From NCBI RefSeq assembly GCF_004123675.1, contig NZ_CP035418.1:62001-126000 (forward strand): a stretch of DNA of 64,000 nucleotides, read 5' to 3'. Made by a program: the position numbers and the translations under genes. Under the pieces are notes generated by a model. That model made no database searches and was not told where the DNA came from. It saw only the letters and a program-made list of their open reading frames with translations. The stretch is from Leisingera sp. NJS204. GTDB lineage: Bacteria; Pseudomonadota; Alphaproteobacteria; Rhodobacterales; Rhodobacteraceae. This document shows positions 11,332 to 13,738 of the stretch, in pieces (the stretch's first letter is position 1; the number at the start of each line of letters is the position of its first letter).

Positions 11332-11555
11332 CGCCGGTTTTCTCTGTGTAACTCTTCAAGCTTTGTCTCTGCCCCCCAGATGCCATGGCTCCTGGCAGAA
11401 TCTTCGAACTGCCTAGGCTCTGGACTCATTGAGTTTCAAAGCCAGTAGATAACGAGTGCTGCAAGCGCGATTGCTGACAGGAAGACTTTTGGGCATCTGT
11501 CGTATCGTGTCGCAACCCGCCGCCAGTCCTTCAGCCTGCCGAACATAATCTCAAT

Positions 11556-11596
11556 CACTGCCCGGCAGGGCATTGCGCAGCAATGTCACGAGAGGG
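11556..11596. repeat. ~41-bp multi-hairpin insertion, copy A1
   Basis: On the + strand it reads as three small stems in a row: GCCC-GGCA-GGGC, CATTGC-GCA-GCAATG, and a short stem closed by a GAGA loop. It splits the transposase codons for RRRNR and IEIMF of IS copy 1, where uninterrupted coding would join directly. Confidence 0.8.
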
Positions 11597-11884
11597 GCGG
11601 TTGCGCCGCCTATTTCGGCGTTTGTCGTAACCGATGGCTTTCTTGCGCTGCTTTCGACCGGAGATGCAGGCGCGTATCCCTTTGTCTTTCAACGCTTCTC
11701 TAAACCAATCGGCATCATACCCGCGATCTCCGAGAAGCCATTGGACGTCAGGCAGGCCACTCAGCAGCGCCTTTACACCGGTGTAATCACTGACCTGTCC
11801 GGCGGTCACGAACAGGTTCAGTGGACGCCCCTGGCTGTCACAGATTGCGTGCAGCTTAGTGTTCATGCCGCCCTTAGTGCGCCC

Positions 11885-11924
11885 CCTCTCGGGACATTGC
11901 TGCGCAACGCCCTGCCGGGCAAGG
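11885..11924. repeat. ~40-bp multi-hairpin insertion, copy B1 (opposite orientation)
   Basis: The same element in the opposite orientation to A1. One stem has a G-U-compatible change (CGTTGC against GCAATG) and the last stem is CCC-GAGA-GGG. It lies between orfA and orfB of IS copy 1. The equivalent site in IS copy 2 (near 12803) is empty, which shows the uninterrupted target. Confidence 0.8.
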
Positions 11925-12469
11925 GATCAGGCGCCCGCGCCCCCCTTTTTAACCCCAAGACTGGAGGCCGTACGATGTGCCTTCAGGTAAGTCGCGTCGA
12001 TCATCACGGTCTTTTCCTCACCGTTATCAGCAGCCAGACCGGCCATCATCTGGGCAAAGATGCCTTTGTCGCTCCACCGCTTCCAACGGTTGTACAAGGT
12101 CTTGTGCGGGCCGTAATCTTTGGGCGCATCACGCCAGCGCAAGCCATTGCGATTGATGAAGATAATTCCGCTCAGAACACGCCGGTCATCAACACGCGGC
12201 TTACCGTGGGACTTCGGGAAATAAGGCTCAAGACGGGCCATCTGCGAGTCCGTCAGCCAGAAAAGATCAGACATATCACCGCTCATTTTTCGAACCGTGA
12301 ATCACGCCACCCACCGGAAATCAATGGGTCCTGAGCCTAGGGTCAGGATTCATAACCAATAGATGACGGTCGCGGCCAGAGCGATGGCTGAGAGGAAGAC
12401 CTTGGGACAGCGATCATAGCGTGTCGCCACACGCCGCCAGTCTTTTAGCCTGCCGAACATGATCTCAAT

Positions 12470-12510
12470 CACTGCCCGGCAGTGCATTGCGCAGCAATGT
12501 CACGAGAGGG
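12470..12510. repeat. ~41-bp multi-hairpin insertion, copy A2
   Basis: Same orientation and same insertion point as copy A1. Only one base differs across 41, whereas the flanking IS sequences differ at many positions. Confidence 0.8.
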
Positions 12511-12872
12511 GCGGTTGCGTCGTTTGTATCGGCGCTTGTCGTATTTGACCGGGGTCTTGCGTTGCTTTCTGCCGGGGATGCAGGCGCGTATCCCTTTGTC
12601 TTTCAACGCGTCCCTGAACCAGTCGGCGTCATAGCCACGATCCCCGTGCAACCAGTCGACCTTTGGCAGGCTACTGAGCAGTGCCCGCGCGCCGATGTAG
12701 CCGCTGACTTGGCCGGCGGTGACGAACAGGTTGAGCGGCCGCCCTTGGCTATCGCAGATGGCGTGCAGTTTGGTGTTCATGCCGCCCTTGGTCCGACCGA
12801 TCAGGCGTCCACGCCCCCCTTTTTCGCGGCCATGCTGGTCGCAGTGCGGTGTGCCTTCAAATAGGTCGCGTC

Positions 12873-12913
12873 CGCTGCCCGGCAGGGCATTGCGCAGCAA
12901 TGTCCCGAAAGGG
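12873..12913. repeat. ~41-bp multi-hairpin insertion, copy C2
   Basis: Same orientation as A1, inserted between the transposase codons for MI and DA. IS copy 1 has the uninterrupted sequence at this point (near 12003), so the length of 41 bp can be read directly. The last stem is CCC-GAAA-GGG. Confidence 0.85.
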
Positions 12914-13223
12914 GATCATCACGGTCTTTTCCTCGCCGTGTTCGACAGCCAGGCCGACCATCATCTGCGCGAAGATGCCTTTCTCGCTCCAACGCTTCCA
13001 TCGGCTGTACAGCGTCTTGTGCGGAGCATATTCCCGCGGCGCATCCCGCCAGCGCAACCCATTGCGATTGATGAAGATAATCCCACTCAACACCCGCCTG
13101 TCATCGACCCGTGGCTTGCCGTGAGACTTCGGGAAGAAAGGGGCAAGTTTGGCCATCTGCTCGTCGGTCAGCCAGTAAAGGTCGCTCATGTCACCGCACC
13201 GTTTGCTAATCATAGGGACGGAC

Positions 13224-13738
13224 CACTTCTTTGGGGGAGGCTCAAGCTGGCCCTTTCACGGCGCGCCGCGCCGTCTGGCCCCCGATTGCACACTGTGCGG
13301 TTGGGGAATTGAAGGAAAGAACCTGGCCAGGTGTGAGCTTCAGTCCTGCTCAATACGGCTGTTTCAGTCAACAGGTGCGCTGATCTTCGGAGGGGAAACG
13401 GATCCCTTCAGCATGTAGAAGGCAGAGATCACATAAGTCATTGTTTTAAAATAAAACCACCGGCCGAAGATCGGCCGGTGGCAATTAACCTCGTGTCAGA
13501 ATGGCAGAAAACCCCCACCAATGGCAGTTATTTCTTGGGTCCGACATCAGTCAACAGGAGACGCTTCACTGCAAGGGTAAGCCGGGTCCGATGACCAAAG
13601 AAATCCGGGGGCATTGGGTCTGAATTCTTCACGGGTCATCCCAGCCCCCCGCAACTAGGGTCTCGGTTAAGGAATTGGCGGCACTTCCGGGCCTGCAGGG
13701 CGTGCCGCATCCCACACGCAGGCAAGGGAAACAAACGC
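13224..13738. other. Intergenic remnant zone between IS copy 2 and the demethylase gene
   Basis: About 515 bp without a convincing gene. A + strand frame ending at 13418 (…ALIFGGETDPFSM) is open back into the IS, but I do not recognise it and it looks like a truncated remnant. A strong hairpin with a T-run on the minus strand at 13447-13481 has no gene to terminate. The last 200 bp probably hold the promoter of the gene at 13739; I see no riboswitch fold there. Confidence 0.5.
13447..13481 (-). terminator. Strong intrinsic terminator on the minus strand, orphaned
   Basis: A perfect 11-bp stem (CCACCGGCCGA/TCGGCCGGTGG) with a 3-nt loop is followed on the minus strand by TTTTATTTTAAAA. No leftward gene lies upstream of it. 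On the + strand it has only an A-run before it and CAATT after it. Confidence 0.65.

Follow-up and report, generated by a model that had tools for sequence, protein, structure and literature searches.

A family of tiny hairpin elements, about 34–45 nt long and of the general form C[A/G][C/T]TGCCCGGCAG, variable stem-loop, GAGAGGG, was found almost only in mobile-element genes, where its members are inserted cleanly and on either strand with a preference for a 5′ RTY motif. They share a conserved fold, different variants re-use the same junctions, and the carriers have multiplied with the inserts in place. Transposases from nine or more IS families serve as hosts, together with a few tyrosine recombinases. 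The reading that we favor, with slightly less than even confidence, is that of a non-autonomous mobile hairpin that lives as a parasite of insertion sequences and would be moved by a putative enzyme acting in trans, its insertion being directed to, or favored in, IS DNA.

Four elements in two IS5 transposase genes

The window, that is, the whole analysed stretch of 64,000 nt from Leisingera sp. NJS204, is part of a 151-kb contig in a genome of 5.04 Mb. It contains two IS5-type insertion sequences on the minus strand, ISA at about 11412..12341 with 24-bp inverted ends, and ISB at about 12336..13207, whose right end is truncated here, and the transposase of each is split by two elements with an exact unit length of 41 nt. 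In ISA, E1 (CACTGCCC...GAGAGGG; 11556..11596, plus strand) lies antisense to the transposase between the codons RRNR/IEIMFG, while E2 (11884..11924, minus strand) is in sense orientation at RLIG/RTKGGM. In ISB, E3 (12470..12510, plus strand), of the GTG/CAC stem subtype, occupies the same codon junction as E1, and E4 (12873..12913, plus strand) is antisense at VMI/DATYLK, with the Asp codon of the conserved motif directly after it. A 26-nt core searched with up to 3 mismatches occurred at four places in the window, all of them E1–E4, against a shuffle expectation of 0.00.

An intact IS5 transposase from Paracoccus pantotrophus (WP_089852160.1), 89% identical to ISB and 80% to ISA, served as the reference. 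Relative to it, E1, E2, E3 and E4 add 41, 40, 41 and 41 nt, respectively, so that each frameshifts its host transposase, and no further gap of 5 nt or more was observed inside ISA and ISB, ends excepted. The exact units and this alignment confirm the sequence-only reading of the stretch, in which four copies of a ~41-nt element had each been taken to split an IS5 transposase. Its statement that the length is not a multiple of three is true for the four copies in the window and does not extend to the family, in which 39- and 45-nt inserts exist. The frame P(S/F)RDIAAQCPAGQ that it had noted in each copy is open in all four, though the peptide is not identical among them (PSRDIAAQCPAGQ in E1, PSRDIAAQRPAGQ in E2, PSRDIAAQCTAGQ in E3 and PFRDIAAQCPAGQ in E4); relatives that contain a TGA (TGACCGG...) are also known. 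At 13199-13244, the truncated right end of ISB abuts a 46-bp stretch that is 98% identical to part of locus L192 of the same genome, close to where the IS3 there ends.

Insertion sites, ends and target motif

Alignment of filled with empty sites revealed an insert with clean ends, C[A/G][C/T]TGCCC...GAGAGGG, with no target duplication and mostly with a net gain of 41 nt; overall, the net sizes against intact transposases range from 38 to 45 nt (41, 40, 39, 45 and 38). An IS3 of Phaeobacter inhibens carries three inserts of 45, 40 and 38 nt when compared with an intact IS3 of Leisingera thetidis (93.1% identical), and an IS3 of Leisingera NJS201 differs from the intact Leisingera thetidis IS3 (95.4%) by a single 38-nt insert, any other gap being shorter than 5 nt. 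Similarly, the IS3 present in eight copies in the window's own genome carries inserts of 41 and 39 nt relative to Sulfitobacter faviae (83.2%). The idea that the sequence is a normal part of the IS family fails, as intact relatives lack it.

A total of 131 sites were collected, of which 127 were usable for the consensus and 89 were non-redundant, and this agrees with the proposal that a tiny palindromic element occurs at independent sites, also elsewhere than in the window. The ends are conserved at unrelated sites over 13 nt on the left and 7 nt on the right, and each of the five positions of the foot C[A/G][C/T]TG agrees at 80–86 of the 89 sites. At 52 of the 89 non-redundant junctions, against a background of 6.1%, RTY stands at the end of the left flank, while 37 of the 89 do not fit. 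Written as YCRTCR, the motif occurs 6.9 times per kb in the window, and a motif this common does not account for the restriction to transposase hosts. Among the sites listed, 14 site types read by eye gave seven elements in sense and seven in antisense orientation, which suits DNA better than it suits mRNA of the host. Several junctions fall at codons that we take to be those of catalytic Asp or Glu residues (IDATYLK, LIDSTG and RIE).

A single nested hairpin supported by covariation

The fold was assessed in 100 distinct 41-nt elements, with 10 of the 131 sites excluded because of another register or damaged ends. It comprises an outer CCC/GGG stem, a GGCA/GAGA internal loop, a nine-pair stem with a bulged T, which is usual in the 41-nt form, and a triloop. 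In this nested fold 95.8% of the cells are paired, compared with 39–45% in slid versions. Changes on both sides of a pair were observed in 67 cells, at nine of the 12 pairs, while 2000 shuffles gave a mean of 9.4 and a maximum of 19; these shuffles keep relatedness in, and the subtypes do occur in unrelated hosts and genera. Examples of compensation include GGG/CCC, GTG/CAC and GGC/GCC stems, TGACC with GAGAGGT, and TGCCT with GAGAAGG, and other forms of the family have very different stems that are still self-complementary. Pairing is thus kept through stem changes, as had been suggested, and the covariation strongly supports one nested hairpin. It contradicts the triple hairpin proposed earlier, whose first hairpin shows one both-side change and whose third shows none; for the commonest variant taken alone, the triple fold has the lowest energy.

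The evidence on which strand folds is mixed. In the middle stem, G-T combinations outnumber A-C by 24 to 7; the outer stem has 2 against 9 and runs counter to that asymmetry between the strands.

Size and distribution of the family

In the window's own genome, a 16-mer core was enough to reveal copies outside IS5. A looser pattern gave 35 matches and the general pattern CTGNCNGNCAG-N10-30-GAGAGGG gave 32, partly the same as the 35, with no match for the reversed control in either case. Within the Rhodobacteraceae, 55 of 394 genomes match a 29-mer with up to 3 mismatches, with no match for the reversed pattern among the rows listed; the genus is represented in this search by one further genome, which has no 29-mer match. 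At class level, the general pattern was present in 13 of 385 genomes, nine of them outside the family, and self-complementary forms occur in only two of these nine, G586 and G508, while the others look like chance. The element of G586 (L250) lies inside DNA that reads as an IS3 transposase.

Among plasmids, 98 of 72,556 records contain the element, at 182 places, and the carriers among the genera listed are presumably all Rhodobacterales, judged from the genus names. An exact 38-mer gave 67 matches in 65 stretches among genomes of 84,980 species. We take the titles of these records to be rhodobacteral as well, except Enemella evansiae (L269 and L324; JAFKDC01 contigs), which is likely mislabelled. 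A phage origin was rejected, as none of 50,697 phage records matches the element and the sole IMG/VR contig containing it has it beside IS5 transposase reading frames. A known RNA family was likewise rejected as its identity, the three Rfam matches for 11400-13230 of the window all being far below the gathering scores. No published description was found in the full-text literature, in a search that covered few subscription papers and no preprints.

Two 34-nt forms, L198 and L207 (C1:863365 and C1:1524749 of the own genome), have a short GC-rich stem around TTT and lie in DNA that looks intergenic by eye; they could possibly be an ancestral or extragenic form of the element.

Host genes

The pieces abutting the 131 sites match 33 Pfam families, and 24 of the 25 listed are transposase, integrase or HTH families; these tallies are counted per piece and the families overlap, so they are not summed to a host percentage, nor were hosts assigned site by site for all 131. 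The lone odd match is Meth_synt_2 at L081, where the sides of the element read by eye as IS3 orfA. Pieces from the other side (98) match 17 families, all transposases, integrases or their HTH domains. In an independent set, the 67 exact 38-mer matches were reduced to 37 non-redundant sites flanked by 200 nt on either side, of which 19 were already in the first set and 18 were new. From the new sites, 36 pieces (one for each strand) match 21 families, all of the transposase or integrase kind or HTH/AAA domains, and 17 of the 18 read by eye as transposase or recombinase, with L321 unclear. The confinement to IS DNA first noticed in the window holds in that the location is almost only in mobile-element genes.

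With a Pfam-to-IS link that we partly presume, the host families are IS5, IS3, IS21, IS256, IS630, IS1380, IS110, IS6, IS66 and IS1182; an IS481 host was recognized by motif reading only. Tyrosine recombinases are the hosts at L034 (by Pfam) and at L214 and L277 (by eye), and a further Phage_integrase match in the new set is probably L277. Few intergenic or accessory-gene copies were met (L198, L207 and L255 of G508, by eye). Singly inspected sites left without a host are L042/L070, L107 (two), L123, L068, L049, L035, L126 and one in L088, some of which are perhaps chance matches. Screening for the longest ORF gave no useful information, the DNA being rich in GC. The IS3 transposase of Sulfitobacter pontiacus W028 (WP_260006160.1, L241) is listed as a CDS despite an element at the orfA/orfB junction.

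Other hairpins were also seen. A second dispersed type, AATTGATC-N-GATCAATT, occurs in transposase genes at L005:1400, L013:1180, L086:1151 and in L192 (near 1720), at the same IS5 position in L005 and L086, and L242 encodes a peptide that resembles that of this hairpin, at the peptide level only. A third type, GAAAACAGTCC-GGGG-GACTGTTTTC, lies at the end of the IS3 orfA of L083 (G075:C1:2247780-2250808), next to five inserts of the main family.

Repeated insertion and multiplication of the carriers

The IS5 junction RRNR/IEIMFG harbors an insert in 15 loci, seven of them with an identical core. At L001, L008 and L072 the element at this junction is identical, while the transposases differ by a dS of 0.76–1.15, and four distinct empty copies (eleven empty alignment rows, with several offsets) are interspersed with the filled ones in a tree read without regard to support values. 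An identical element in diverged hosts, together with these empty copies, argues for recent, repeated insertion. The omega values at this junction are 0.05–0.14 for most pairs, 0.3–0.5 with the decayed L108 and 0.80 for the near-identical L008/L010; an ancestral insertion under purifying selection, which the low values might suggest, was set aside, as the unchanged element in diverged hosts indicates recent insertion. Several different stem subtypes were found at the LI/DSTG junction, and the IS3 of L083 contains six inserts by eye, five of the main family and one of another type.

The carriers themselves have multiplied. ISB has two more chromosomal copies, with differing flanks, that match it at 100% over 872 and 874 nt and carry both of its inserts, and the insert-carrying IS3 occurs in eight copies at 99–100% identity; no near-identical empty copy of either was present in the own genome. 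A 75% relative of ISB has E4 and lacks E3. A truncated IS3 piece of ~420 bp, which is an IS-derived miniature element, lies at nine places (L192 and C1:537280, 1327710, 1548217, 1134586, 3601758, 295119, 1394957 and 571069) at 99–100% identity, eight of at least 419 nt and one of 203 nt, and eight of the nine hold an exact 37-nt hairpin insert. Amplification of carriers was dropped as proof of function, because this truncated piece is amplified too, which makes movement of the carriers in trans likely. In the IS3 pair L149/L185, which shares an insert at one site, dN/dS is about 0.16 upstream and 0.11 downstream of it, and these low values on both sides could be read as function.

Search for a mover

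Candidate enzymes were compared between 29 carrier genomes with at least two 29-mer matches and 29 genomes with none, both hand-picked rather than random, the latter possibly holding other forms. The Y1 transposase (PF01797), one of two movers suggested from the sequence, was detected in nine of the 29 carriers and one of the 29 others; it is absent from 20 of the 29 carriers, including G262 with 13 copies of the element. The IS200-like TnpA of the own genome was rejected as the mover, since its ends differ from the element and its family is missing from most carriers tested. The other suggested mover, a reverse transcriptase, found no support either: RVT_1 does not separate carriers (11 of 29) from others (nine of 29), both counts including one that scores under the cut-off for the family, and none was found in the own genome.

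Explanations considered

In the reading that we favor, one strand would fold as single-stranded DNA and would be cut out or copied and joined 3′ of the motif by a putative structure-recognising enzyme acting in trans in an IS200/REP-like manner. Insertion would be directed to, or strongly favored in, IS DNA, and broken carriers might be mobilised in trans by intact relatives, carrying the hairpin along. Several points count against it: Y1 is missing in the 20 carriers, the IS200-like ends are dissimilar, the strand evidence is mixed, the motif is common, and no transposition event was observed. A variant that appears somewhat unlikely has a dedicated structure-guided system, with a putative enzyme, aiming hairpins at transposase and recombinase genes of any family, either as a transposon hyperparasite or as a host immune device. 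The main rival is selection alone, by which hairpins would insert widely and those that switch off a transposase or recombinase would be kept because the host benefits. The hosts do span unrelated gene families, tyrosine recombinases among them, with no shared DNA sequence to explain the choice, both orientations occur and the frame is broken in all four copies of the window. However, one insert inactivates a transposase and six are present in one, and undirected insertion should have left copies in dispensable intergenic DNA and accessory genes, where few were noticed (L198, L207 and L255, by eye); we regard selection alone as unlikely.

A host anti-transposon device, in which a putative enzyme places structured inserts into transposase genes in order to silence them, would account for targets in at least nine IS families, for the sites at the presumed catalytic codons (IDATYLK, LIDSTG and RIE) and for the other, unrelated hairpin inserts in the same genes. 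We nevertheless judge it improbable, as no candidate gene was found, the copies form a replicating family with its own subtypes and the carriers still multiply. It is very improbable that the insert is skipped as a translational bypass element or mini-intron, leaving the transposase functional like the byps of Magnusiomyces mitochondria. Some carriers are otherwise intact and amplified, removal of 41 nt restores the frame at RRNR/IEIMFG, and the shared insert of L149/L185 has the low dN/dS on both sides; but the element occurs in both orientations and six times in one transposase, its identity in hosts at a dS of about 1 speaks for recent insertion rather than long tolerance, and the amplified defective ~420-bp pieces show that amplification needs no intact gene. 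An origin through slippage during replication, or through template switching, as a by-product at short palindromes, with which the hairpin shape and the missing target duplication would agree, is scarcely credible, for the 13-nt left and 7-nt right ends at unrelated sites and the compensatory subtypes across genera need copying from existing elements.

Relation to known systems and significance

Small palindromic repeats are common in bacteria and are usually extragenic or spread over unrelated genes. Integron attC sites have RYYYAAC and GTTRRRY boxes, and neither GTT nor AAC is present in the 41-nt consensus. MITEs, by a definition that we partly presume, are tiny non-autonomous mobile DNA like the element, which differs from them in having no target duplication and no visible IS terminal inverted repeats. 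The element works most like REP and IS200 hairpins, yet it lacks the features checked for REP/RAYT membership. As we partly assume and as the part of PMC3733652 consulted describes, REP/RAYT and IS200-IS605 hairpins are likewise short and imperfect with an unpaired 5′ foot, insert 3′ of a short motif without target duplication and are mobilised in trans, as is also reckoned for the element. The clean insertion and the short 5′ motif of an IS200/IS605-like mechanism are both seen here, the latter as RTY at 52 of 89 junctions against 6.1%, with 37 of 89 not fitting. In contrast to REP/RAYT, the element has the foot C[A/G][C/T]TG and no GTAG tag and is located inside transposase genes rather than extragenically, and its carriers have no consistent Y1, unlike the Y1/RAYT transposase of REP/RAYT and IS200/IS605.

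The CGTC-tagged palindromic repeats of alpha-proteobacteria, as far as the same part of PMC3733652 describes them, have 8–9 bp stems beginning with AT, a loop of 4–5 nt and mostly a CCA tail. They resemble the element as small alpha-proteobacterial palindromes with an RTC-like left tag, intragenic units and no dedicated transposase, while the element has the CCC/GGG outer stem, the GGCA/GAGA internal loop and transposase hosts and lacks the AT and CCA features. Rickettsia palindromic elements, in the portion of PMC10969869 that deals with them, are also palindromic selfish DNA within protein-coding genes, but they are about 150 bp long, in frame and in unrelated metabolic genes, whereas the element is 34–45 nt long, often frameshifting (41, 40 and 38 nt; 39 and 45 are in frame) and in transposases. 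Byps, according to the passages of PMC5009743 on them, are short frame-breaking inserts in many genes that are compensated at translation; the element shares such short inserts that break the frame in many genes and differs in occurring in both orientations, with many inserts in several hosts.

A structure-conserved family located almost only in transposases from many unrelated families would amount either to a parasite that lives on other parasites or to a means of disarming transposons that has gone unrecognised. Such a family would also account for the broken look of a share of the transposase genes in Rhodobacterales, and it lends itself to concrete tests of how bacteria keep insertion sequences in check.
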